The translations under genes were made by a program, and so were the position numbers. Positions 14,208-41,414 of a stretch of 47,190 bases of DNA are shown piece after piece. The notes under the pieces were generated by a model. The model made no database searches. It had not been told where the DNA came from and saw nothing but the letters and a program-made list of their open reading frames with translations. Positions within the stretch are counted from its first letter, which is position 1. Every line of letters starts with the position of its first letter. The DNA is from Candidatus Peregrinibacteria bacterium (GTDB lineage Bacteria; Patescibacteriota; Gracilibacteria; UBA1369; JABINC01), in the NCBI GenBank assembly GCA_030700255.1, contig JAUYJN010000010.1, positions 1 through 47,190 of the forward strand. Direction: 5' to 3'.

Positions 14208-17200
14208 TTATTTATTTTGAGGAATTACTCCTTGAAATTCAACAGGATCACTTGCCGTAAATACTTTGGAATTATCAACACTTGTAATTGCAGTGAAGAT
14301 TATATCACCTTCTTTGAGATCAGCACTATTTTGTATTGTTGCAGGGCATGGACAAACAGTACATGCGGGTACTACTATATGAGGCCCAGGTTCTTCTGAG
14401 TTCGCAGTTTCGTCTGCATCTGTAAATCCGTCTTCGAGTGAGCCTGTTAAATCAGGTAGGTCATCAGCGCTCGCAGGGAAGTCATCTCTTGGGTTGAGTG
14501 GGTCGCTGCCACGATTTATTTCATCTCCGTCATACACTCCTCCGAAGTCAGTATCCGGATTAAATGGATCTGTACCATATTTATCTTCATCCTCATTTGA
14601 TAATCCGTCTTTGTCGATATCATCATCAGGAGTGAGGGGATCCATTCCATTTAGTACTTCATCTAAATCATTGATGCCATCATTGTCAGAGTCCGCATTG
14701 TTTGCATCTGTACCAAATTTAACTTCGAGATAGTTGTAAAGACCATCTCCGTCCGTATCGATTTCGTAACAACTGTAAATATTTAAAACTCGCTCTGAAA
14801 TTTCGACAAATTTTTCACGTGTAAGATCTTGTCCTGGATTTAGAGCCTCAAGATCGTTAAGTATAAACGCACTATTAACTTTTTCTTTCAAATTTATATA
14901 AGGAACTATGTCTTTTGCGATTTCAAGATATGGTGTGTACCAAGGCGTACCAGGAGTTACGTCATCAAGGCTTTTTAGAACAGTAGATCCTTCTTCGGTT
15001 ATAAATCTTGAAAGTACTTCTTCTATAATTTTTGCAGTTTCTGCAAAATTAATTGTTTGATTAGGTTTGAAGGGAGCTTTGCTATGCTCATCGGTTTCAG
15101 CTAGATATCCGGTAATAAAGTTTCGAATAAATGACTCTTTTGTAATAGGGTAGTACCAAGGTATTTCTTCTGTGAATGCTATATCACTGAAGACTGATGG
15201 GGATTCGTATGCTTCCGGACGTGGCACTATACATAATATCTCAAGCATAATTTTTGTAAATTCTGCACGTGTGATTTTTGCATCAGGTCGGAATAATTGT
15301 CTGTCATTCACGGTATAACCTTGAATGATTCCCTTTGAATAGAAATCATAAATACTATCATAAAGTGGATGATCGGTTGCAATATCTGTAAATGGAGAAT
15401 TAGTCATCCTCACCGGGCTCGTCCCTTGTAATACTTCTTGCATATCAGGGAGCCCGTCATTGTCCGTGTCTGCATTGTTTGGATTTGTACCTAAATTTAC
15501 TTCCTGCGAATTTGTAAGACCATCATTATCAAGGTCAGAATCTCTGTCGGGAGTTAGCGGATCCATCTTATGTTGAAGTTCAAATTCATCGGTGTATCCG
15601 TCGTTATCATGGTCATTGCTAACTACTGGGCTAGCCCCTGTCTCGATGCTACGAGCGAGAGTAGGGTCCCCAATCCTATAATCCAGAGCCAGTCCATTGC
15701 CATCAAATATTGAAATATAAATATCAGCTAAAACCTCAGTTCCTCTATGCAGTTCGAGTACATAAGGGTCCGTACTTTCCACGGTTTCTTTTACCCGAAG
15801 GTCAAGACCTGAATCAAATAAATATATGTTACCATTTGTAGCGACGAGCCCGAGTCGATTATCATTTGATAAAATATCAACCCCTCCGGGATATAGCACG
15901 TCAGATGAAGATATACGTTTGAATTCTATATCGTTCGCAGCTTCTTTTGGTTGTATGTGAACTCCGACGAGTTGTTTTAAGGTTTCATAGTTGTAGTGAA
16001 CTGAACCACTATCTATAACAACATCTGTGTTTACTTCAGGAATCAAGAATGTAGTGAGAATCACTTCACCATCTAGAGTTTCCAAATTGATGCGTGTAGG
16101 TAAAACTTCGCTCGCGCTGAGAGCTCTCAGTCTGTAGTTCTCATCTGTTACGAGCATTCGGCCGGAATCTTCGTCAACTGTGGCGATAGTCATTTTTAAA
16201 GCATTTATAACTTCAATCTCTTCATTGAGTTTGAAATCATCTATATAATATTCTCCATTTTCATCAGTGTAGAAAATATCTGTGCCGTCTGCAGTTTTAA
16301 GAGTATCAAATAGGCCATCACGCTCTCTAACTATACGAAGTGGCATAAATGATTCGCGAGGCTCCGTATATCCTTGTACGACTCCTTGCTTTGCCGAAAC
16401 GGGGCTCAGTATTATGTCCGGAACGTAAACTTCCACTTCAACTTGTTGTGAAGCCAGGTTGCCACCGGTATCTTTTACCCATAGTTTGAGATATCGAGTT
16501 TCCAAATCTTGGAAAGGTCCAATTTGTATTACAGGGCTTGTTTTGTCATTTGCCGTGTTTCCATCAAGATTAGAATCAACAGTTTTATCGAGATCATTGT
16601 ATCTATCAATATCATTGGTAGGGTCTCCATCACGATCATTATCTCTTTCCAGATCCAGGTCATAATAATATTCAGATATTCCGCCGCCTACGTCTCTTGA
16701 CTGGCTACCATCTATATCTATAGTTTTGAATATTGCGACTCGTTTTTTTGCAGGGCCCACTGAGGCGGCGGGAGCAGCGCTATCGCCACATTCCTGAGGG
16801 GCAAGCAATACACCATTTGAAGCTGTACCTTTCTTTCCTTCTGCATTTATCGCACGGATCTTTGTATAGTAATTTCCATTCGGAAGGCTTATTTCAAGTC
16901 TTGGTTTATTTGGATTATCGAGCTTTTTAATTCGAAGTGATTCATTTTCATCAAGTGCAATCTTGAGATTATCTTTGTATCCAATTTCCGCACTGCCACC
17001 TTTTTTCGTGTAAACTATTGATTCCTCAGTTAGAAGCATATTTGACCTGGGCTCTTGTATAACAAGCTCAGAATCAAAATCTATCATCTCTATTCCTCCG
17101 CTGAGCAATTCTATAAAAGTATCATCACCCAGTGAGTCATCAAGTTCAAACTTAGTATTTTTGTCGAGAGTAAGTACGACCGTACCTTTGAGTTCGCTAT

Positions 17201-20200
17201 TTAATTTTATTTTGGAATTACTTAGAGCATGTATTATTTGTCCTTTTTCTATAGGATTTTTATCTCCTCTTAAAATTGTTTTCCTGGGATATGTATATAT
17301 TTCAGAACTACTTGATGCGTTGAGCAGTACGATATCCGCCTTACTTACATCAGGCATATCAAACGTAGTGTCACCTTCAAGGACGATTCGTTCACGGGTA
17401 TCTAGATTGATAGTGAGTTTGGAATCCTTCTCAGTTGAAAGTTTAGTACCGGGTCTTGCAAAAATATTTTCTCCACTGAGTATGAGAGCTTCCCCGGTTA
17501 TATTTAATTTGACAGTGCTATCGTCAGAATTTGGGACTTCAAATAAAGTGTTCTTCTCAAGTTTGATTTGACTCTCATGGTTGTTTTCATCTCTGAAAGT
17601 TAGAAGGGCCTTACCTCCATCAGTTGAAATTTTATCACCGCCTATTATTTTGTTCGGATCTTCAATACTACTTGTTACATCAACGTCACCACTTAAGATT
17701 TCTATATCAGCTTCCGGATTTAACTTTGGTCTATTTTCTTTTGGCGCTGTTACCTCCGCCGTTACAAGGACTCGTTCAGTCGTAGAGTCATCACGTTTAA
17801 AGAAATCATTTAATGAATGTTTCATTTCAAGCTCATAAGCTTGATCCCCATAATGTTTCAGCCACGTCGCAGTGACCCTATTGTTTGCTGTGTCCAGTAA
17901 TTTAAACATATCAACGGCACTTTCTTCCGGCATAAGTTCATTGAGTTCGTATTTCTTTGGAGGTCTTATGTAGTGTTGATCGGATCTTGATTGTTTATAG
18001 TTTTCTTTGAAATATATTTCGGATCCGAGTGTGTAGATTATGTCTTCATCTCCATCTTTGTCGAAATCAGTCATTGCAATTTCGCTACCTTGCCCGCTTT
18101 CTTTTGTATAATTTGTAAGTCTATCAGCTGTACCTTTTTCTTTGTTATATATAAATATTCCTTTGTGAAGAATTTCCGCTCCACCGTTTTCACTTCCGGC
18201 ATTTAGCGCCGCATTTGATGCGAGCGGCCGGTTGTATATCCAGTTATCTTTTATTGCACGAGTATCTTCAAATGTTTCTTTTAGAGTCTCTGCGGCGCTT
18301 ACCATTGGATCATTTTGATCAGAGTTTGTGTCTCTTCCAAGAGATACAAACGAATCAAATCCATCAAGATTCATTGCACTTCCTTCGGCTGCGAACATAT
18401 AACTTATGTTTTCTATTTTAACATCATCGCTAAATCTGGAATTGTTTTCTTTCATAGTGTCTACGTATGTAATCATTCCATGCTTCAAATTATCAAGGTC
18501 AGCGATATATTGATTATCAAGATTTTTGACATCAACCTTTGTGATGCGTAATTCGTCGAGGCTGCGATTTAACAATGGGTGTGTGCTATCGATCATTTCA
18601 GTCTGTGCTACTAGCCGAATATCATCTCCGAAGTGAGCTGTTGCGTTATTGAAATCATTCGCTTCTTTGTTCAAAGTTGAGATAGTATTTGTGAGCTCAG
18701 CTATGTATTTGCTAGCATTTGGTCCAAGATATGAAGTTGCATCAAGTGGTGGCAGAGTTGGTTCAGGGCTGCCGCTATCAATAGCGTCGCTCGCTGTATC
18801 ATCCAGTACGTCAACGGCATCAACAGCATCCTCTACAGTGTCTGAAAGATCTGCAGTAGTCTCGCTTACAGTTTCGGTGAGTGAATTTACTGCATCAGTT
18901 CCAGAATCGATTAGTCCTGTGAGTTGATCAGTCAGTTCATTCGCTTTGTCAGCAACTGCTTCTATAGCATCTTTGATTGGAGTTACGTCTACGTTGAGAT
19001 TTATTTTTGTAATAATTTCTATTTTATCAACGAAATCTATTTTTATATCCGGAGTCTGAATAGTGATTCCTTTGTCTATAGGTAGGAGTAGGTCAGACCC
19101 TCTGGCAGTTAATTCTTCAACTTTTGTTTTGAGGCTACTTTCGTTAGAAGGAATAAATCCATTTTTAACAAGACATACAATCTTTATGATTTTTTCGAGC
19201 CCTTTGACCGTTACCGATAGAGCCTCCGGTAACGCCGGGAAATCAGGTGGTGGTGGGATATCCGGAAGTTTAGGTAGTGGAAGCCCGGGAAGTCTTGGTA
19301 GGTCAGGGAGATTTGGTGGCGAAGGTAATACGGGAATAGTAGGGAAACCAGTCGCGTTGAAGTCCCTTAGGAAGTCTCTTAATTGATCTCCGGGAATATT
19401 TTGCGGGATATAAATTTTTGGAATATCCGGAAGTGTTATTGGTTCAGGTACAACTTTGAGTTCAGGGAAATATAAAGTTACACCGGCTTGTATCTGTGAA
19501 ATATCTAAAATTATATTTGGCCATTTAGGGATATCTATGATTGGTGGAGATGGGACGAATATAAATACTTTCATCATTAGCTCCATCAAACTAAGTCTGG
19601 AAGTCGTACATTTATCACATGAATCTTGATAAGAAATTGAAAGGTTCAAGAGTCCTTGCCATGTTTTAACGGCATCTATGACATCCAAAATTGCTTTGGT
19701 CCAAGCCTTGATACGATTCTTATTTTTTATTACATATCCTCCACTAAAATTAATTATTGCATCTACATAACAGATTATTTGCGTTACATAATCTACTGCT
19801 GCAAATCGGTAATCCATTATTTTGTCCGGTAGTTTTGCATATTCCTGCATGACGAGAGTATTTTCTTCAACTGATTTTATGAGGTTCTCTAGTTTGCTGA
19901 GGAATTCTTGCCCTTCTGCAGAGGCCCAAGCTTGTATAACTTCTGGGGGCATGCCGCTCGCACCCGTAGAGGCGTAGCTGTCGCCTATGTTTTTGTAATA
20001 CTCAAGTTGCGATTTCATATTTTCGGCAAAGCTTTCTGCTTCTTGCTGCATTTTTTCTATTTCTGCTTGGGTTACCGCAGGTATACGTAAAATCACTTCT
20101 TCAGTTTCTATTTTAAATAGTGGAAGGCTGTTTAAGAAATTAAGTGCATCATACAAACTCTTTATTTCAAGTTTAGTATCTTTTGGAGGTAAGAAAGTTC

Positions 20201-23200
20201 CGAGCATACTCTGTGGATCCGGATATATAAAATAAATATCAGGAAGATCGAGTAGGTCGGCAAGTTCTTCAGTTTGTCTGTCTATCCAGTTTGTAAAGAC
20301 AGAAGGGAATCCCGGGATACGTATATTGGTATTCTGCGTCGAGGGCACGCTATAATTGCCCAGATTGTAAGAGACAACACCTCCGGAGCCACCACCGGAA
20401 GCGCCTGAGCTCTGTCCGGTAGTAGAGATCGCGAGTGTATCACTTAGGCTTTTTACAGCATTACTTGCGCCGGCCATTACAGAGTCAACTGCTCCATTGA
20501 TTGCATCGCAAACTCCAAGTGCTTGTAACAGCGGTATATTAAACGCCCAGCATTGGCCGGCTGATTTTGGTCCAAGGCACAGTGCCAATACGAGCCCTCC
20601 ATTTAGAGTAGGGGATAGATAAATTCTTCCAGCTTGAGAGGTCTCACAAATACTTGCTGCACAGACTGTAGATGGATTTGTAGCGCCCCATCCAAATACC
20701 GGAAGACCATTGTCAAATCCGATGGGGATTCCAAATAGATTAAAATTTCCCGGAGTTAAAAATGATATATTTACAGGTGTTGCGAGACACCCACCGCCAC
20801 ATTGTAGTTTCGAGATTGCATCTTCAACTACCGCGGCAGCACCATCTAAGACTTCTCCAATTATAGTATCGCTCAAATCCACACTAAAGCTGAGTATGCT
20901 GATATCGCCGGATACGGTATCCCAACTATTAGGTAGTCCATCACCATCTAAGTCCTCCGTGGTATATGTATCATATGCCGCAGCGACGTCCTCCCGTGTC
21001 TTTTCCGCATCATCATCAAATGGTTCACTGACATCAATCCCACTTTCAGGCTCCGGTTGCAAAGCTGCTCGATCGATCTCTGTTGGTATGTATGTATGTT
21101 TTGCATATTGTATGCCTTCAACAGTCCGTAGATTTGAATAGAAATATGTCATTCTGCCGGATGAGTTTCCTTCCGGAGTAGCTGCTATATCAAGGTATTG
21201 ATCTTCTTTGTACCCATCAGTGAAATTATTGCCAAGAGTTATATTTACTTTCGGAGTAAAATCCAAAGTCGCTTCATATGAAATAGTGATCTCTCCATTC
21301 GCAGGGACTTCAAAATTTCTAACAATAAACGGACGAGTTAAATCATTTGTAAATTCCGTATCAAATCCGGCGCAACTTTCACAGCTTATACTCTCTTTAT
21401 CAAGAGTCATTGAATCAGGTAATTCATCACTTAGTATGACTTTAGAAATGATCATCCCGCTTGCATTTTTAATTGTTAACTCATATTTGATTTTGTCACC
21501 GGGTGTTAAAATATCTCCATTCATGTCGATGGCTTTTTTTGTACTGGTGAAGAAATCATCATCGTATGCGATATTTATAAATTCTTGTTCAGTCTTTACA
21601 CGAGGAGTTGCTGTCTGCACATCTTTACCGGAGTTTTGTATGCTATTTAATTTATTGAAGTATGTAGTGTCCGCCCCTGCAGCAAAGCCTCTATCGTCAA
21701 TTACAGAGAGAGTTCTGAACTTATTATCATCTGAACTGATATTTGGATTGTTTGTTATCATCGAAGGATAGCTTATGAGAAGCTCATTCTTTAAATTCAT
21801 CTCAGGGTCGATTTTCACACCGAGATTACCTACGAATTCACCGTCCTTATCAATCTTTCCTTCACGATTATAGAAGGTATATATGCTGCCACTTGCATCA
21901 CTTACGACTATGTCAGGGTCTCCATCGGACTCCATATCACCAACTTTTAACATGTTAACTTTGTAGTCTAAATTCAATCCTAGATTTTCACGTCTGAAAG
22001 TACCTTCATCATTCCAGTAAATATCGACACAAGTTTTCTCATCGGCTTTACATGATTCTTTGGCGGCTATAACTATGTCATCATATCCATTGCCATCGAA
22101 ATCGCCGATATCTTGACTCAAGATCCCATTTTGAATATCGAGTAGAGTACCTTTGTCTTCAAATCTATTTAGAGAATGTTTGTTTTGTATTAGATCAATC
22201 TTCCCATCTTCGTATGAAACAAGTAGGTCATCGAGACCATCGTTGTTGTAATCATATGGCGTTAAGTCTTTGATAAGCTTGTCACCATTTAGAATTTTCT
22301 TACCGATAGTTCTATCAAATCCGGAGTCAGCAACATTATTCGGTTTCAATGAGATAGTAGGGTCACCAAGTAGGATTCCGATTTCTGAAGTTTTATCCAT
22401 CATGGCTTCTCCCGCCATTTCACCTGCGGCAAAGAGTAGAATATGTTTATTGTCATTTTCAAACCCAACTCCTTCTTTTTCTTTTGCATTATCAAGAGTT
22501 AAGTATGTGCTACCCGGACTTTGGTCTGAAGGTAATTCTTCTGACGTATCAGCAAGCGCATAACTTATATGGTTTTTACTTGAGTTACCGTTGAAGATTT
22601 TTTCAAGTTCATAGTCGGTAGTTCCAAGATGCGGGACTATGTAGATTCCATTTGAAAGTGTATTTGCCGTGATGAAATCAAAATCCTCATCAAGCACTTG
22701 TATGTCACGATTGAAGTTAAAATTAAGAATTATTTCTGCAATCACATTTCCGGCTTTCCATATTTCTACTCTTATATACTCTGCTCGTTGATCGAGTTTT
22801 AGGTCAAAACTTTGGTCTATTACATTTATGTTTCCGGTAGGTGTAATAGAAACAACTTCAGCACCTTTTTCAGTTAGGCTTAGATTTCCTTTAAATCTTT
22901 GAACTTCAAATTTAGGATCAACTGTAAGCTTATTCAAAAATAATCCTTCTTGAGATTTAGTTGGTTTTTGAATATTGAGGTACATTTTTCTCGTCGCCGA
23001 ATTGTTTGCAAAAACCTCTATTAGTGAACGATCTGTAACAATATCTTTAACGGTAAATCGAGTAGGGTAGTTTTTGTCATTCGCAGGTATCACCTCTGTG
23101 TATAGATATGTGCTGTTCACATTGCTGATTAGTCCATTGCCTTGTATTTGCACACGCTTAACAAAGCTTTCAGGTTTTTCAAGTAAGCTCACGACTGACT

Positions 23201-26200
23201 GGGTCTTACCACTCACAGCCATCCATGAGGCAAAATTATTTGGTTCCGTTAAGTCTCCTGCATTTGTACCGAGGAGTGATGCAAATAGTACATTTGGATT
23301 TGAATCTCTTATGTCTTCAAAATCCACACGCTTTTTTGCATAGAGCGTAATAGTTGTTGGAGTCAAATTACCGGTTAAATCTTTTACAAGAATGTTTATA
23401 GGTCCACTGAGAGTTTTTGGAAATACTTTCATAGTTCTTTGGCCATGCTGAGTTGCAACAGGGTTTGTGTTTTCAAGTTCAGCGAACTCATCGGTTGCAT
23501 CTGTAATTCTAAATACTAGTAATTCCCCGGCATTGTCGGAAACGAAATTACCATACCTATCATATACTTTTGCCGTTAACGTGATGTATTCGCCCTCTTT
23601 GGTATATACGGTGTCATTGTCCGCTTCTACTTGTATGAAGGCGGGGCTGAGAGGCTCTATATTCATCCTGAGAACTCCCGGGTTAGTCCCGGGCGACTGT
23701 GCGTTTACAAATTCAGTTCCGGAGAGCACATTGGTTCTAAATACTGCTGTGCCTGAACCTTCAACCATTTCAACTTCAGAAGAGCTACGAATAACTCCGA
23801 GGCTCTCATCACTCAAACTTATATTTACGATTTCATTAAATCCGGTGAGTTTTAATCCATCTTGGTTGACTGCAGTTATTCGAATCTCAGTATCGCTCAC
23901 TCCATCAGCGCGAAGATTTTGGTTTGTATGAGTAAGTATGAGATTAATTTCTTTTTCTGATTTGAGAGATATTTCTCCACTCGCCACTGACGCGGTAGCG
24001 TCACTGCTATCTAAAACATTGGCTCGAACAATTACATCGCCCGGATCTTCCATTGAGAATATCGGGAGTATTCGAGTGCCTTCTGCAAAGTAAAGTTGTA
24101 AGCCATCCCTCTTATCATCTTCATCCGGTATATCAAGAGTAGCCGGCCCTTCTACTTCTATTTGGACTTCATAAAGATCATAGTTGGCAATGTTATCGTA
24201 TTTATCTTTTAGATCAATTTTTACATCGACTTTTGAACGTACTCCGGCTTGCAAGACTTGTGAGCGCGCGGACATATTTATAGTGAGTGGATCGAGTGGA
24301 TGTATGAGCACTGATTTTTTATCGGAAGCTATATTGCCGCTTACAGTCCGTGCGGTTACATTGTAATTTCCGGAAGTTATCTTCGATCGCAAGGTCGTCT
24401 TTGCGACTCCCTTGCTCACTCTTATGATTTGTTTTTCTATTTCTGCAAAAGCCCCGTCCTCAACTATAAATTCAATTATACTTGTATTATCATCAAAATT
24501 AATTCGCCCATCAGAATCCAAGACTTGAGCTTCCATTATTAAATTTTCGATGTCTTCACTCACAGGTAGTTTATCGACCGGACGTATAACATCCGATTCA
24601 AATATTTCATTCGCCTTTTTTTCTATGAAGACAACTTCTTTTTCAATATACAAGCCTTGAACCTCAACATCAGACTTGCGACCGTCTCCACCTAAATCAC
24701 CCGCATCAGGGACAATTGGGTCAGTACCAAGCAAAACCTCTTCGCCATCGTCAACGCCATCCCCATCCGAATCAGCGTTTTCAGGATCTGTACCGGCGAC
24801 CAATTCATCTTCATTTGTTAATCCATCCCCATCGTTGTCGTTTGCAAAATCATATTTTTTAACCTCATCAGAAGTTTCAAATTCTTTGAATTCACCTTCG
24901 TCACTTCTATCAAGTGGATCCATGTTTCGGACAACCTCATTACCGTCAGTGACACCACCTAGATCGGTGTCAGGGTCATTTGGATCAGTACCATATTGAT
25001 AGAGCTCAGTGTTGTCAGGTAGCCCGTCAAAATCAGCATCAGAGTCTCGGCAATCACGAACTTGGAATAGATTTTGTACCATCATGGCAAATTCAGCGCG
25101 CGTTATAGGTGCGCTCAGCCACTGCATAAATGTTCCATTTTCAGTAACTTCCGAATCAAACCAATCTCTAAATTTATTTTCACTAAAATGATCTACTTCA
25201 GTAAACCGACCTTTCGGATATAGTTTGTGCTTTTGAGCTTCACGTACATAATCATAAAACCATGGTCTGTCATTTGCTGTATAAGTGCTAGCTTTGAAGA
25301 CAGAAGAATCTACGAGTGAGCTTGCTGTCTCGATAAGTACTTTTGTCGCTTCACTGCGACTTATATTATTTTGCGGAATAAAAAATCCTTTGTATGGATT
25401 TCCCATGTATCCAGATACGATTCCATCGACTTTACCTTTAGCGACACAGTAAGCGAGCTCAGGGGATATATTTGTATCAGGGAATGGGTCAGTATTGTAC
25501 GCGCCATCAATCTCCTTCTGAATGCTTTCTGAGAAAGCAGTACAGTCTATACATGCGGCACCGAGATTTATTTTTACAAATTGTTCACGCGTCAGTCTGT
25601 TGTCAGGCTTAAAAGTGCCGTCAGGAAATCCACGTAAAATCCCACGAAGATAAAGATTGATTATGGCAGAAAAAGCTTCGTTATCATTTGAAACATCTGA
25701 GAATAATCTTGTCGCAATTTTGAGAGGATCAAATCCGGAAGAAACTTCTTGGTAATCTGAGAACTTATCTCCATCAGAATCAGCGACCTCTATATTTGTG
25801 CCGATGGTGAATTCTTCCATGTTTGTGAGCCCATCCATATCAGCATCAATAGCTACACTAGTCGGAGCCTGTCCGTATACAGTTGGGACAAGATATTCAA
25901 ATACTTTTCCTAGCATTTGTGTGAATAAAACATTGCCATCGTTTTTAAGTGCAGTCGTACTATCTTCCAATATGATATCTATGCTCTTCAAATCAATATC
26001 CATTTCCAATTCAAAAATCGTATCAATATTTTTAATTATAAGATTATTTATAAGATCATTTTTGAGGCTTACTTCATATCCGCCATTTAAATATAGATTT
26101 CCATTATTTTTTACGAGTGCGATTTTTTTATGTTCATTATCAAAAACCTCATAATCTCCATCTTTTTCTTCAACCGAAAATCCTTCAGCAATATTTTTGA

Positions 26201-29200
26201 ATTTCACACTTCTCGCATTTATTGCAACTTTACCTATAGTTTCATTTTCACCTTTGCGCGCAATCGCTATGTATGAAGAGTCGGTTCCTCCGGCTGGAAT
26301 ATATTTTATTTCATAAGCCGGATCTGCAATTTTCAATTCTCCGGTATCCGCATGTAGTCTCGCAACGATATTGTTATCATCTTTCTTTATTAAAATATTT
26401 TTCAAATTCTCTTCGTCATAAGTAATCTTGCGGGATGCTTTTTCTTTTATATATGTTACGACCTTCAGCCTATCTGCAGTGCTCTCTGCCCTTACAGATG
26501 AAGTGTCCCTCAAGTCCTCACGATTCACGGTAGTTGCATTCGCACTAAAAGACCCGGGCTCTGTCGAAGTTAAGATTTCAAATTCAGCTTCACCATTTAT
26601 CAGTGGAGCCGGGTTTTGCGACAAAAGAGTAAATATAGATTCCGAATCATTTAAGTTTAATTCGACCTCCGTGAAGTTGTCAAAAGTATTCGTTATGTAT
26701 CCAACCGAAGTTAATTTCTCTCCATTTACAGTGATTAAAAATTTTTCTTTTCCATCAGCACGCGCAAGAGTTTTATCTATTTCAATAACGACGCGATCGG
26801 TCTGTTCAGAGCCATCCGGAATTCCATCAGAGTTGTTGTCCGGTAAAAATGGCGATACATCCTCATTGTCAGGGATCCCATCGAAATCATAATCCGGGCG
26901 GCTTGGTGGTGTTCGGTCTTCCTCTTCAGGGTCTATCACATTTCCACAGACTGACCCTGACTCACCAAAACTTACTTCTTCAGAAAGTCCATCTATCCAT
27001 TCAACCATAGCTTCAAGCCATTCAAATAATGGCAAAGCATCAACACTCATATTTATAGCATTTTCACTATCATAACTTTCATTTGCCATGGACATCGCAC
27101 TGTCTTGTGAGCTTTGCATTGCAAGTGCCGAGACATGACTTGCTTCGTTAAATTCCGTATCCTCTTCGATATCAGGTACGTCTCCATTGAAAGCAAAGTT
27201 ATAACCATGAGCATCGCCATCTCCTATGAAGTACATAATTTCATATCCATTTTCCGGCCTATCAATAAATGGATCATCATCAGGATTCATAAAAGTAGTC
27301 ATCATGTATTTATGCTTCTCATCTATATTCAAGTTATTCCACTCAATTGCGTCCTCCATCATTTCACGATTAAGTCTTGTATCTATAGTGTTTGTCAAAA
27401 CGTCATTGTATGAAGCGGCCCCGGGAAGAGCTGCGATCTCGGCATCCTTTGCAACCAGTCCTTCTCTGAAATCATCAACAGATGCAAATCTAAATAAATT
27501 AGGGTAGTTAACTTTATGATAAGCAAGATCTTGCCCTCTAAATGTAGTATAACGTGGAGAATCTATAGGTAAGTCGAGAGTAAACTGGGCCTCAACTTGT
27601 TGCATGATTGTATCGTTTGTAGGTTCTTTGTGCATTACAACACTCGGAATCGTATGAGCTAGATTTATATTTGGAGTAAGTACAGGATCCCCTCCGGGGC
27701 CATCAGAATCAGCTACGTATTGACGAGTCATATTGAATATCGCTTCTTCAACTCTAGGTAATGGATTCTGTAAAGTTACATGAGCATCTCCATTTGCAAA
27801 TAAATCTTCAGAAAGGATTTGATTTACTGAGGTGTCATATCCCATAGCCTCAAGTAGATCACCAAGTGAGTATTCAATGTTATTTGAAGGGTCGATTAGG
27901 AGTGGTAATTCTTCATATGGAGTGTAAGGACTAGGGCGTGAACCGAGGGAAAGTAACCAGTCTTTGTAGTAATTTAGAGCTCTGTCAAATTCCTCTTCAT
28001 TATCAACCATGTCCCCAACTCCACTAAAGCTTAGTGGTGGATGTGCGGGGGTTGTTGTATTATAAACCCCATCTTGTTGAAGCTTCCATGTAACGTCGGC
28101 AATATTTTCCGCCCAATATAAATAAGAATTCGGTTGATTTGAAGGTGGGATTGGAGCGAGTGGATTGCCATGGAAACCAAATGATTCTTTGAAATCATAA
28201 CAAGCTCTGTAATCAACAGGCACATCTTGATAAATTTGCTTTGTCCCTTTTTTGCTTCGTATTGGCCCCTGCGAATTATCAGGAAAACACCAATCCGGAT
28301 GTTCTATATTATTTCCAAAACATCCTCCGTAATCATCACCATCCTTTAAATCATCAGGGTACATTTCTTCATCATCATCCGTGTCACGATTGTAGCTACC
28401 TCCGGTCAAAGGATCGTATAGGCGATTTGTTTCAACTATTTTGCTACCTTCACATTGGCCGTCCCCGGTTACGTCACAATCTGCCGCCGTCCCAAGGTTA
28501 AGTGAACATTCAACCGCATCTTCAATTCTTTGTGCCGGCTTTCCCCATATATACGGAGTCAGCGTCATATTCTGTTTTTTAATCCCATGATTTGTAAAAC
28601 CATACAGTACAGGATTTGGTATAGGGTGGATTGGCACGGTAGCCGAGTCGTGATCCTCGTCATATAATAAATTTATGGATACATCAACTCTACCAATTAG
28701 CGGTACGTCTTCTTGGATGTTATTTACGATTGTATCGATCTTGCCCTCAAGATATTCATTTTGAGCTCTGAGATAATTTTTCACAAACTCATCTTTTTTT
28801 GATACGAGCGTGATCAAAGTATCTGTATCATTTCGGGCAAGCCCATCGTCTTCGACTCTTCGGCTATCATAACGCCCGGTATTTTCAGTCCAGTTGTTTA
28901 CGTTACCAAGATGCTTATCAAATCCTTCATAATATTTTTGTAGATATCTATCTATAAGAAGTTTGGATTGAACATCAGGTAGTAAAGCAAAATAACTCAT
29001 GTCCTCTGCCGGAGCTTCCGCATCCCCAGAATCTTCATCGAACAGGCCGTCACCATCATTATCATTGTCGGCTGTACCATCTTCATCACAGAAGCCGTCC
29101 TCATCATCATCCCATTCAGGATGGAAATAATCAGGGTCACCGCTATGCCCGGGGTCATAACAATCCGACTCACTTGTGTATGGCGGCTCATCCACGCAAA

Positions 29201-30587
29201 AATCCCGCGAATACGGAGGTATTATTCCAGCTAAGAACATAGCAGCGGTAAGAGGTGGGAATGGAACATATGCTTTTTTGTATGCTTCCGTGAAATTTGA
29301 AACCATATCAGGGTGATCATCGATAAAATCTTGCCCAATAGTCCCAACGAGGTCATGCTCCATCTGATTTTCTATATAATTACGGAGCCCATCTTTGTCA
29401 GAATCTTTACAATCCCTATCGTCATCTTTACCACATTCACCGGGACAACCATCGCCATCCATATCACCAGGGCCATCTTCATCGGTCTTTCTATCACCCC
29501 GTGCATAATCTGCATTATTGTCATACCTTGTATCTTCATTGAGTTGCCCATCAAGATCATTGTCGATTAAATTTTCAGGATCACCATCATCCTCATCGAT
29601 CAATCCATCTCCATCATCATCGAGCCCATTGATAGGGTCTTCATCAATCAGCCCATCACCGTCATCGTCTTCCGCATTACCTCCACTTAGCTCTCCATTG
29701 ATTTCAACAAAAAGTTCTTCAGCGAGTTCTTTGGTATATCTGTGGTACGCAGTATCCTCCAAATGCTCTATATATCTTTGATAGTTTCCAAACCCTAGTC
29801 GGTTGATAACTTTTTCTTGAGTAGGGGTCGCTTCAAACAACATATTTTGATCGAATTCATCAAACCCGGAAATCCCCTTATTGAATAAATGATTCTTATC
29901 CAAGAATGAAGCGACCAATTCATACGCTTCATTGTTAGAGCAGATAGCGGATGAGTCCGACCCATCTCCACAGTCCGCTCCTTCCAAATTATATGGCACT
30001 GGCGAAGTTATCACTCCATGCCAAATCTCAGGTGCTGTATTGCGAGCCAGCTGATTCGCCTCAAAATCTTCACTCTCCGGATTATAGATATACGCCTTCT
30101 CTTCAAAATCCGTATAAGGATACATAGACAAGAATCTATTCCCATTTTTATTTACAACAGGGATAGGTAAATCCCCAATCAAAACAACTCCAACCAGTTT
30201 CGCAGTCTCTTTTCCGGAAACTTCGCCTTCAAAATACAGCCTCTCAAGGACTTTTGAGATATTAGATGGGTCTTCGTTCATTTCAACTTCAATAATCGCT
30301 GTTTTTGTATATGGCAATTTCGCCTGAACATCTTCAGCATATCTTTCAATCCTTTTGCCTATCATTCCATCGCTAAGCACAGGGTACTCATCGCGAAGAC
30401 CTTGTCTTTGCCTGAGATCTTCATTCATACCCTTTTCAACCAAAATCGCAACTAGAGAATACTCTTCCTGCGATTCAGCTCCATAGGCAGGATTGACCCG
30501 CACCATCTGAGTGAATACAAGTACAGTTATAAGTGACAATGAAACCCACTTATCGAAAAGCTTTTTTAATGGATGAGAACTCCACAT
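14208..30587 (-). CDS. giant multidomain S-layer-type surface protein, 5459 aa
   Basis: Signal peptide at 1-36 (ends NPAYGAES). The N-terminal domain (about 40-290) contains [14 protein letters not shown] and YPYTDF, reminiscent of gingipain-like folds. DxDxDG calcium-binding repeats lie at about 300-530 and 1210-1265. A first TSP3/SLH block follows: TSP3 at 1575-1615, three SLH-like repeats at 1635-1840 ([21 protein letters not shown]), and TSP3 again at 1848-1973. Invasin/Ig-like strands fill about 1980-2420. FG-GAP-like DxDxNGxxD repeats lie at 2776-2912 and 4170-4200, and a DUF11-like domain at 3009-3116. A cysteine-rich part spans about 3206-3382, a proline-rich hinge 3713-3783, and a helical region to 3950. 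A FecR-like beta region lies at 4283-4563 and a PKD-like part at 4600-4730. A second TSP3-SLH-TSP3 block (4990-5362) leads to a Cys-containing tail (CTVCPC). SLH repeats imply anchoring to the cell wall. The gene heads a five-gene operon. Domain calls are by eye. Confidence 0.9.
23677..23693. repeat. CCCGGG hairpin inside the giant gene
   Basis: CCCGGG, five-base loop TTAGT, CCCGGG. It encodes SPGTNPG in the Ig-like region and is another GC-rich inverted repeat within AT-rich coding DNA. Confidence 0.5.
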
Positions 30588-30779: not shown

Positions 30780-32030
30780 TCAATCTTTACGAAATTTCGT
30801 ATACAAAAACTCGTTTTCACCTTCAAAATTCAACCACCATTCTTCAGGCTTGATCAATTCATCCGCAATCAAACCATTATGCGCATATTCATGATGTATT
30901 TTGCAAACTGGAATTATCGAATCATGCGTGCCGCCATTTTTAAATCGTACACGATGATGGAAATTTTCATAGGGCCTATTACAGCCGGGGTACTCACATT
31001 TCCCATTGCTTTTAGCCAAAATCTCTTTTTGAGTGCTTACTGGAACATAGCGATCAAAAAAACTTTTATCAATAATTTTGATTCTTGATCTTATGAAATT
31101 AATAATATGGTTACTACGCGACACTCCGCCCATCTCGTCTATTTTTTCTGCGCAGAAATTTTTGACAACACTAGTCTTTTGTCGTATTTCACCCTTCTCA
31201 CCACTTTTCTTAACAACTCGAACCCCATCTTTATCCAACCTAACACTATCATCAACTCCATTACCATCTATCTTACGCCCCCTGGCGCCAACTCCCAGAC
31301 TATTCAACTCTGCAAGCATTAGCCTCAAAGCTTGTTTCCCACTCAAATTAACGCCACTTTCTTTCTCATATTTTTTCTTCAATTGTAAAAACAAAAACTG
31401 CATCTCAGGATCTAGTGAAATAGTCATGGCTTCTTGCGTAGCCCTGCATTTTCCGAAATAAGACGTTCCAGACCAATTAGTCTCAACTTCATCCACAGTA
31501 TCATTATTTACCCTCGCTTCAGCGAATAGATCGTCTTCTACCAAAACCAAGGTCGATTGATCCATTTTAACTTTAGTTCGTAATTCTTTAGATAGTTCTT
31601 GCAAAGCAGGCATACTCATCTCCTTAACTCTTTTTGCAAACATTTCATCCGTTTCCGCAGTTGCAATCTTCGCAACCAGAGCCACTTTGTGCACACCCGC
31701 TGTGCGAATCGCTTCATACAAGAATGGTTTCCCATTGAGATTTTGATGCAATTTCAAAGTTTTTTCGACAACGCTGTGCGACAAGCCAGCATACCTCCCG
31801 GCGTATTCATATATGGTTCCACATTTATGTTCCTTATATATAGATTCATTGTAAATTTGCGGTAATATAGCCAAAAGCTCATAAGTTAGGCGATTCCTCT
31901 CACGCCCCAAAGCTGCAAATTTCATATGCAAACTTTTATGACTCTGTTTAGCATCAACTTCATTGCTTACATTTGTACAAGTATGCTCAACTTTACTTCT
32001 TACTGATTTTTCAATTTCAAATTTGCTCAT
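30780..32030 (-). CDS. HNH endonuclease with DUF222-like N-terminal part
   Basis: 416 aa. The helical N-terminal part (about 25-240) includes SLHMKFAALGRERNRLTYEL and EYAGRYAGLSHSVVEKTLKL, as in the DUF222/13E12-type HNH families. A variable linker (about 245-325) is followed by the nuclease core: C345 and C350, H358-H359, H369, C376, H379-H380 and H384 (CKIHHEYAH). These fit a zinc-bound beta-beta-alpha-metal HNH site that cuts DNA. Partial paralogs lie at both window edges. The linker contains the palindrome-derived VKNFCAEKID (289-298), also found in the remnant at 32249-32473. It ends in TGA, as do the left-edge paralog and one toxin-antitoxin pair. Biological role unknown; it may be a selfish or defence-related gene. 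Confidence 0.8.
   Translation of the reverse strand: MSKFEIEKSVRSKVEHTCTNVSNEVDAKQSHKSLHMKFAALGRERNRLTYELLAILPQIYNESIYKEHKCGTIYEYAGRYAGLSHSVVEKTLKLHQNLNGKPFLYEAIRTAGVHKVALVAKIATAETDEMFAKRVKEMSMPALQELSKELRTKVKMDQSTLVLVEDDLFAEARVNNDTVDEVETNWSGTSYFGKCRATQEAMTISLDPEMQFLFLQLKKKYEKESGVNLSGKQALRLMLAELNSLGVGARGRKIDGNGVDDSVRLDKDGVRVVKKSGEKGEIRQKTSVVKNFCAEKIDEMGGVSRSNHIINFIRSRIKIIDKSFFDRYVPVSTQKEILAKSNGKCEYPGCNRPYENFHHRVRFKNGGTHDSIIPVCKIHHEYAHNGLIADELIKPEEWWLNFEGENEFLYTKFRKD
31137..31180 (-). repeat. palindromic repeat copy A, encodes VKNFCAEKID
   Basis: The centre is TTTCTGCGCAGAAA, a perfect 14-bp palindrome flanked by A/T runs. It resembles copy B at 32414-32455 across about 40 bases. It is read in frame within the HNH endonuclease linker. 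Confidence 0.6.
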
Positions 32031-32248: not shown

Positions 32249-32473
32249 TCACAAGAAACATTCAAGGCTTTGCGCCGTACCAACTAAGAAATTAATACCA
32301 AAAACTCTCCATGGCGAAGAAAGGAACTCTATATAATCACGCAACTCAGCTTTCTCGAGCTTCTTAGCCCTCCAGTCCACTAAACTGTAATCACGCAACA
32401 TTTCATAATGGCTGTCCAATTTTTCTGCGCCGAAATTTTTGACACTATATCTTTTATATTGCACAACGAACAA
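32249..32473 (-). pseudogene. truncated DUF5665-like membrane protein gene
   Basis: 74 codons. The segment LRDYIEFLSSPWRVFGINFLVGTA matches the DUF5665 pattern of a short helix, a P-R/W motif and the start of a membrane helix (NFLxGxARGLG in the family). The frame stops at TGA just where the hydrophobic helix should continue, and no other frame restores it. The 5' part contains the VKNFGAEKLD repeat, and the nominal start is only a TTG; an ATG at HYEM is another choice. It is best read as a decayed or interrupted gene. Homology is by memory of the family motif and is moderately confident. Confidence 0.45.
32414..32455 (-). repeat. palindromic repeat copy B, encodes VKNFGAEKLD
   Basis: It shares with copy A (31137-31180) AAAAGA, TAGTG, TCAAAAATTTC and GCGCAGAAAAA in the same order, with one 3-base length difference and few substitutions. 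The palindrome is broken at one base (TTTCGGCGCAGAAA). Confidence 0.6.
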
Positions 32474-40406: not shown

Positions 40407-41414
40407 ATGCGCATGATAATCGAAGAAATCAAAAAATTGATCCGGTCTCACCTTGATGCAATCCCAGAGGGGAGTGTTCCGCTCATCTGCATCATTGGGC
40501 CGACTGCTGTTGGCAAGACAGCCTTGAGTATTGGGCTTGCGCAAGCCTTCAACGCTGAAATCATTTCTGCAGATTCGCGCCAGGTTTACAAGGGGATGGA
40601 TATTGGTACTGACAAGATTACGCCGGAAGAAATGGACGGAGTACCTCACCACATGCTTGATCAAGTCGAGCCGGATGAGGCGTTTTCGGTATTTGATTTT
40701 AAACGCATAGCTGATGAATTGATTCCACAGATTTACGAACGTGGTCATATTCCATTTATAGTAGGTGGTACTATGCTTTATACGGATGCAGTTGTGAATA
40801 ATTTTGATTTTGATGGTGTAAAACCAAACGAAGAGTTGCGCACAGAACTACAAAAATTCCTCGATGAAAATGGCAAAGAGGCTCTGCACAAAAGACTTGA
40901 AGAGCTCGACACGGAAGTCGCAAAAAAGATTCATGCAAATAATACTCACTATGTTATGAGGGCGATTGAGAAAATGATGAATTCTAATGACAAGCAAAAT
41001 GGCCTGGCAAACGAGAAAACCCAAGGTTCAAAATCTTGTACTAGTACGAGTCAGAAATATGAAAGGTCAAACAATTATCATATCCTCAAAATCGGGCTGA
41101 TGCGTCCTCGTGAAGAAATTTATGAGCGAATCAATTCACGAGTTGAGAAGCAGTTGGAAGATGGAAAACTCGAGGCTGAAGCAAAACATTTTATAGACAA
41201 ATATGGTAAAGATGAGCGCTCTATCACAGGTCTTGGCTACCGACAGTTTGTAGAATATTTAAATGGTGAACACACACTTGATGACGTCAAAATTCGTCTC
41301 CAAAAAGAAACTCGCAATTTCGCAAAACGTCAGATAGGCTGGTGGAAAAAAGACGACAGCATTCACTGGTTCGATGTAAGCAGGAACCCTCTAATCAACA
41401 ATATTAATTCTTAA
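40407..41414 (+). CDS. miaA: tRNA dimethylallyltransferase
   Basis: The open frame starts at 40296, but the upstream part encodes the L10 leader complement. ATG 40407 (335 aa), or 40413, fits the family. Motifs: P-loop GPTAVGKT, DSRQVYKGMDIGTDK, HHMLD, GGTMLYTDAVV, RAIEKM and GLGYRQFVEYL. MiaA transfers dimethylallyl to A37 of UNN-reading tRNAs. Residues about 193-221 form a variable loop that contains the SCTSTSQ peptide (210-216) encoded by a repeat also found at 98-123. The enzyme core appears intact on both sides. It is followed after 11 bases by a MazG-like gene and is divergent from rplJ. Confidence 0.95.
   Translation: MRMIIEEIKKLIRSHLDAIPEGSVPLICIIGPTAVGKTALSIGLAQAFNAEIISADSRQVYKGMDIGTDKITPEEMDGVPHHMLDQVEPDEAFSVFDFKRIADELIPQIYERGHIPFIVGGTMLYTDAVVNNFDFDGVKPNEELRTELQKFLDENGKEALHKRLEELDTEVAKKIHANNTHYVMRAIEKMMNSNDKQNGLANEKTQGSKSCTSTSQKYERSNNYHILKIGLMRPREEIYERINSRVEKQLEDGKLEAEAKHFIDKYGKDERSITGLGYRQFVEYLNGEHTLDDVKIRLQKETRNFAKRQIGWWKKDDSIHWFDVSRNPLINNINS
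41030..41055. repeat. 26-bp repeat, copy 2, in miaA
   Basis: Identical over 26 bases to 98-123. The core GTACTAGTAC is a perfect 10-bp palindrome, extended to 16 bases if one G-T pair is allowed. Both copies are read in the same frame, giving KSCTSTSQ. Confidence 0.85.

Follow-up and report, generated by a model that had tools for sequence, protein, structure and literature searches.

A 26-bp repeat that occurs twice in the window (the whole stretch of 47,190 nucleotides analysed here, contig C10 of a Candidatus Peregrinibacteria genome of 1.37 Mb in 46 contigs) is quite probably the cognate site bound by an HNH-family protein, carried by the protein's own gene and with stray copies elsewhere, as judged from sequence comparison. 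Computed directly were the linker palindromes of this gene family, the codon phase and symmetric change of these palindromes, the way they covary with protein residues, and the extra copies. A literature search found no paper linking palindromes with HNH genes in the Peregrinibacteria clade.

Copies of the repeat in the genome

The following features of the window bear on the repeat:

3 to 499, + strand: HNH-family gene remnant at the left edge (tblastn with the paralogs of contigs C40 and C13)
98 to 123, + strand: first copy of the 26-bp repeat (copy 1), within the linker-coding DNA of this remnant
106 to 115: palindrome GTACTAGTAC in copy 1, its centre on the codon boundary between ACT and AGT
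30783 to 32030, - strand: second HNH-family gene, a more distant paralog with M-P-Q at the reading positions
31145 to 31158 (region 31137-31167): palindrome TTTCTGCGCAGAAA in the second HNH gene, phase 0, with G as base -2
32372 to 32464, - strand: related HNH gene remnant adjoining the second HNH gene, with the decayed palindrome TTTCTGCGCCGAAA at 32422-32435 (region 32414-32444)
40413 to 41414, + strand: miaA (IPP transferase; Pfam PF01715, E=3e-73, and relatives)
41030 to 41055, + strand: second copy of the 26-bp repeat (copy 2), within the miaA loop
41038 to 41047: palindrome GTACTAGTAC in miaA

The initial annotation had reported one 26-base sequence at two places, with a perfectly palindromic core and a common reading frame encoding KSCTSTSQ, and all of this was confirmed. 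The two copies of AAAATCTTGTACTAGTACGAGTCAGA agree at 26 of 26 bases, far beyond chance (about 2e-6 pairs expected for a 26-mer, none in 100 shuffles); each contains the perfect palindrome GTACTAGTAC, and each is translated as K-S-C-T-S-T-S-Q in the same frame. Copy 1 does occupy a linker-coding position as described, but the gene around it is a truncated and frameshifted remnant rather than an intact HNH gene: the contig begins within it, a deletion and frameshift lie at about 215-233, and its halves are out of frame (3-233 in frame 3, 215-499 in frame 2).

Within the whole genome, the search suggested in the initial annotation recovered eight copies with at most 3 mismatches, and a reversed control recovered none:

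C10:102, C13:102, C40:41842 and C27:38139: four copies in HNH genes, at a homologous position in paralogs
C10:41034: the miaA copy, in the sole unrelated open reading frame among the eight
C39:4071, C27:30303 and C40:21187: three intergenic copies

The sister-genome search suggested alongside it came back empty, with a 22-mer of the repeat absent from all 58 relatives at 3 mismatches allowed. Exact scans of 84,980 genomes with a 21-mer and of viral contigs with a 19-mer likewise gave no match. Bases 1-141 of the window are also the start of contig C13, so that copy 1 lies within an assembly-overlap segment. That copy 1 is merely a contig-end overlap, and the repeat an assembly artefact, is nevertheless scarcely credible, as the C40, C27, miaA and intergenic copies are internal to their contigs and an orthologous site exists in the congener.

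The unit common to the copies spans 26-35 bp and is found at only about five independent sites, with two classes of flank. The first comprises the HNH-type copies and C39:4071, which continue as GTC..AAAACCGCATAA; the second comprises C27:30303, C40:21187 and the miaA copy, which are preceded by GT.CAAAATC and followed by AAAT.

Palindromes in the linkers of the HNH family

The named relatives of the genome's HNH proteins belong to Candidatus Peregrinibacteria and Peribacteria. With the intact paralog of contig C40 (L005) as query, 47 matches were obtained in its own genome, and 29 of 40 genomes contained matches. Two further observations concern this genome: the window contains a single open reading frame of 5459 aa at 14208-30587 (- strand), and a perfect 36-bp palindrome, AAGAGAAGCATGGAGGCTAGCCTCCATGCTTCTCTT, lies at L111:81-116 on C40.

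Palindromes proved to be a general feature of the linker in 104 non-redundant HNH-family genes from the order, which were compared with codon-shuffled versions of themselves. A linker palindrome of at least 11 bits occurs in 69 of the 104 genes versus 8.1 expected, and one of at least 13 bits in 52 versus 1.65. Of these palindromes, 68/69 and 52/52, respectively, have their centre between two codons. The linker that holds the palindrome is disordered and connects an N-terminal DNA-binding-like domain to the HNH domain; within HNH genes, the parts encoding these two domains showed no palindrome excess and resembled the shuffles. The density of palindromes of at least 13 bits is 3.65/kb for linkers, as against 0.093/kb (39-fold lower) for the rest of the coding DNA, and linker palindromes are confined to this gene family, of which about one third of the members lack a strong one.

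The palindrome differs from gene to gene, and its change is symmetric. CCCGGG is the most frequent core (26), followed by CCTAGG (7), GGCGCC (6), CACGTG (6), ACTAGT (3) and others. Among pairs of genes anchored by their flanks, the changed core was again a perfect palindrome in 25, with every change two-sided, while the remaining pairs were mostly chance anchors or unalignable. The subfamily of the repeat itself provides the clearest such case, as TCTTGT-ACTAGT-ACGAGTCAGA of this genome corresponds to TCTTGT-GATATC-ACGAGTCAGA in the congener G001, where the flanks are kept and the core is swapped. Since this sequence, in an HNH gene, is the sole copy in the congener, the HNH linker is likely the older home of the repeat and the dispersed copies would be recent.

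An RNA hairpin or a terminator in the mRNA would be in keeping with the G+C-rich stems and with the position of several intergenic copies near gene ends, yet such a role is highly improbable. With the requirement limited to the outer stem, 42 of 57 genes still show palindromy at the four central bases, which would form the loop; the first mismatches of the linker palindromes are 15 GT versus 14 AC, so G-T is not enriched, and most copies lack the following T-run of a terminator. The palindromic centre and the missing G-T preference disfavour a hairpin and favour a symmetric DNA site.

Covariation of palindrome bases with N-domain residues

Protein columns were compared with palindrome bases by mutual information, and column 375 stood out for base -2 (z=17, against 6.5 for the next column). 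Lysine in this column goes with C at base -2 in 43 of 44 cases, whereas N, S, T, A or C mostly go with A, and Q or M mostly with G; the second HNH gene of the window, with M in column 375 and G at base -2, fits this pattern. The genes were picked on palindrome and phase only and never on the residue, and the test is therefore not circular. In 34 disjoint nearest pairs, chosen as independent pairs to take out relatedness, residue and base had both changed in 18, the residue alone in 2, the base alone in 0 and neither in 14 (Fisher P=8.6e-8), which makes column 375 the best of 222 columns. Column 379 was the best for base -3 (P=0.001), and columns 375 and 376 were among the best for base -1. All three columns belong to one helix, as its residues i, i+1 and i+4, and the palindrome centre follows downstream at a median distance of 26.5 codons.

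The same relation appears among close relatives. In the subfamily of the repeat, the listed K-N-E proteins all have a CT/AG centre, while G001 (N-N-R) has GATATC. Of the paralogs in this genome, N-R goes with TGCACGTGCA and K-S with TGCCCGGGCA, a contrast that equals the difference at base -2 between the parS and NBS oligos (PMC8429893).

Hairpin-templated (quasipalindrome) repair that neutrally maintains an old palindrome would account for the symmetric change and for the constant phase. It would leave both the covariation with the N domain and the confinement to one family unexplained, and is very unlikely to be the origin of the pattern.

Structure of the N-domain

A structural model of one member (L133) consists of a well-predicted helical N-domain, a disordered linker at residues 146-167, within which the palindrome encodes residues 151-158, and the HNH domain. 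The model of the N-domain has a pLDDT of 94. The best PDB match in Foldseek was the DNA-binding domain of Noc on its site, with a probability of 0.95 for the N-domain and 0.94 for the whole protein and with weak E-values (0.39 and 0.48). Profile comparison of the HNH family with nine ParB proteins (hhalign) was not significant, even though the helix-turn-helix was in register; PF17762 gave E=0.04 in only one of 16 HNH-family members, no sequence profile match; and a PDB sequence search with the HNH alignment returned nothing useful. An N-terminal ParB domain was not seen in the architecture of the HNH proteins. Given a best fold match with weak E-values and a lack of significant profile homology, the likeness is claimed for the reading of the site and not for ParB identity: an HNH-family protein would read its site much as Noc or ParB does, which does not make it a ParB. 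Separately, the canonical ParB helix-turn-helix (HTH_ParB, PF17762) was found in 1 of 31 genomes of the order, and many of these genomes may lack a standard ParB.

Dispersed copies and the insertion in miaA

Dispersal of linker palindromes was sampled in four genomes (this one, the congener G001, G030 and G009). Outside HNH genes, the linker palindromes of G030 were found 7 times in G030 and in none of the remaining three genomes, the G009 palindromes 4 times in G009 and 0 times elsewhere, and those of the present genome 8 times in itself, 4 times in the congener, once in G030 and 0 times in G009. The palindromes of G001 were not enriched in G001 (2 versus 2 and 2 elsewhere). Most outside sites lie between genes; a 362-aa open reading frame of G009 (L261) contains one in frame, and another match (L214) resembles ordinary coding DNA.

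Other palindromic sequences were observed in the same genomes. A single intergenic stretch of about 180 bp in G030 (L212:4445-4621) contains three different HNH-linker palindromes, and the intergenic palindrome AAAGTTCATGAACTTT occurs four times in G030 (L215, L225, L230, L231) and was seen in no HNH linker. In the present genome, a separate dispersed non-coding repeat of 300-400 bp with TTGTACGTTATCTTGTACAA and the palindrome TGTGCACGTGCACA has at least 12 copies (L017-L028), often at contig ends, on contigs C2, C6, C8, C9, C17, C19, C39, C40, C42 and C43. TGTGCACGTGCACA is also the linker palindrome of the HNH gene L120:506. A fragment of a large serine recombinase (zinc-ribbon domain; L130:249-857, C9) ends in the palindrome AAGTGTGCCCGGGCACACTT near a copy of this longer repeat and is possibly its mobilising enzyme.

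In miaA, the loop with the repeat exceeds that of the congener by 57 nt (19 aa); the exact ends of the insertion cannot be fixed at 70% protein identity. The comparison across relatives proposed in the initial annotation found the expansion in this genome only and in none of the 29 aligned relatives. Because of this absence the miaA copy is, on these alignments, a derived, in-frame loop expansion and not an ancestral loop. It resembles the intergenic copies across 33-35 bp (35 bp aligned with 2 mismatches to C27:30303), and the flank class common to both suggests that it most likely came from the intergenic class of the repeat.

The initial annotation had likened the repeat to the Rickettsia palindromic elements (RPE), mobile repeats that persist within proteins by keeping the frame open. 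On such a reading, small selfish palindromes would insert where the frame stays open, and both the HNH linkers and the miaA loop would put up with them. Further copies and a derived in-frame insert in miaA were indeed found, and neither of the two outcomes named in the annotation as refuting the idea (no more copies in the genome, an ancestral MiaA loop) was obtained; the in-frame palindrome of the 362-aa G009 open reading frame and the likeness of the miaA copy to intergenic copies also speak for such an element. Its small unit, few sites and lack of matches outside this species do not. For the HNH copies the idea of a mobile insert fails, since four of the eight copies occupy one homologous position in one family and are explained by common descent. 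Moreover, a parasitic insert would not account for a palindrome that is a standing feature of the family, keeps one codon phase in nearly every linker and covaries with residues likely to read DNA. Selfish palindromes are thus an unlikely explanation overall. The original observation stands, and is most likely better explained by a self-carried recognition site of a nuclease family, of which one copy became stranded in miaA.

A proposed self-carried recognition site

The proposed protein would combine an N-terminal helical domain of Noc/ParB-like DNA-binding fold with a disordered linker and a C-terminal HNH nuclease, and would store its own dyad-symmetric site in frame in the DNA encoding the linker. 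A dimer may contact the palindrome with K150, N151 and E154 of the helix (numbered as in the C40 open frame). Extra sites would be scattered between genes and, in this genome, also in the variable loop of miaA, where the copy presumably survives as the frame stays open.

The effect of binding is the least certain step. Most likely it either limits expression of the nuclease or targets the nuclease to the site, where repair would swap nuclease modules between paralogs in frame; autorepression by a dimer bound within the gene is plausible. Binding by itself leaves the in-frame placement of the putative site unexplained. Cutting and repair at the palindrome is plausible as well, because paralogs of this genome lose homology at the palindrome and appear to have exchanged N and HNH domains.

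A stronger form of the latter, in which the palindrome is mainly a joint where N-terminal and nuclease modules swap by cleavage and in-frame repair, is compatible with a self-carried binding site and is possible, if doubtful as the main function. Over the 55 bp to the left of the palindrome, five paralogs of this genome share 75-95% identity, which falls to 18-35% on the right side (the L111/L116 pair is an exception), N domains with 78-82% identity accompany HNH domains with 42-48%, the reverse also occurs (44% and 83%), and the intergenic copy C39:4071 retains about 25 bp of the HNH right flank. A fast-evolving linker to the right of the palindrome would, however, produce the same drop in homology.

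Extended to the whole clade, Noc/ParB-like HTH-HNH nucleases would each store their own recognition sequence between reader and cutter, forming a self-labelled library of specificities with dispersed cognate sites, in which the site doubles as the joint for module swaps; the case for and against this wider proposal is evenly balanced. If it holds, the sequence targeted by any nuclease of this large, uncharacterised family could be read from the nuclease's own gene, and sequences alone would suffice to learn the recognition code (375 to -2, 376 to -1, 379 to -3). A gene family present in many copies in uncultured Peregrinibacteria would acquire a function that can be tested, and its members would provide a natural series of specificity switches resembling that between parS and NBS. 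The in-frame palindrome of a housekeeping gene would also be accounted for, with no need to invoke a new class of mobile element.

Comparison with known systems

As in the Rickettsia palindromic elements, a palindromic repeat is translated in frame within unrelated proteins. RPE are about 150 bp long, with ten families and 44 insertions in many unrelated genes of R. conorii (PMC10969869). Here, only the miaA copy is a derived in-frame insertion, the shared unit of 26-35 bp falls short of a palindromic unit of about 100-150 bp, and miaA is the only unrelated gene reached by the eight copies. Unlike RPE, the repeat has its home in one nuclease family and its sequence is tied to protein specificity.

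REP elements are palindromes of 20-40 bp, mostly intergenic with some inside open reading frames (PMC3733652), and REP/RAYT systems share with the present repeat the link between short palindromes and one gene family. The 26-mer differs from them in having no GTAG or CGTC tag and a low copy number (eight). A RAYT-type Y1 transposase was rejected as a partner, as the domain is absent from four of five relatives (G001, G030, G032, G009) and represented by one fragment in this genome. Nematomorph mitochondria also keep perfect palindromes in coding DNA, of up to 284 bp and in conserved regions of many genes (PMC6649704), while those described here measure 10-24 bp and lie in the disordered linker of one family.

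Proteins of the REP13E12 (DUF222-HNH) type are multi-copy and combine a helical N-domain with a C-terminal HNH domain, an architecture shared by the present family; membership was rejected, as the DUF222 profile has no match in this genome.

The closest parallels are Noc with its binding sites (NBS) and ParB (Spo0J) with parS. The first parS of B. subtilis was located within spo0J itself. Like the sites of these proteins, the present palindromes are perfect, scattered on the chromosome and include CCCGGG and CACGTG cores; the N-domain model has the Noc DNA-binding domain as its best fold match, with weak E-values; and the site tracks specificity residues, as seen in the covariation above. In Noc and ParB, specificity is switched by few residues (PMC7333895). 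Unlike these proteins, whose sequences it does not match significantly, the HNH family has a C-terminal HNH domain and dozens of paralogs of differing specificity per genome, and each HNH gene has a site in its own linker.
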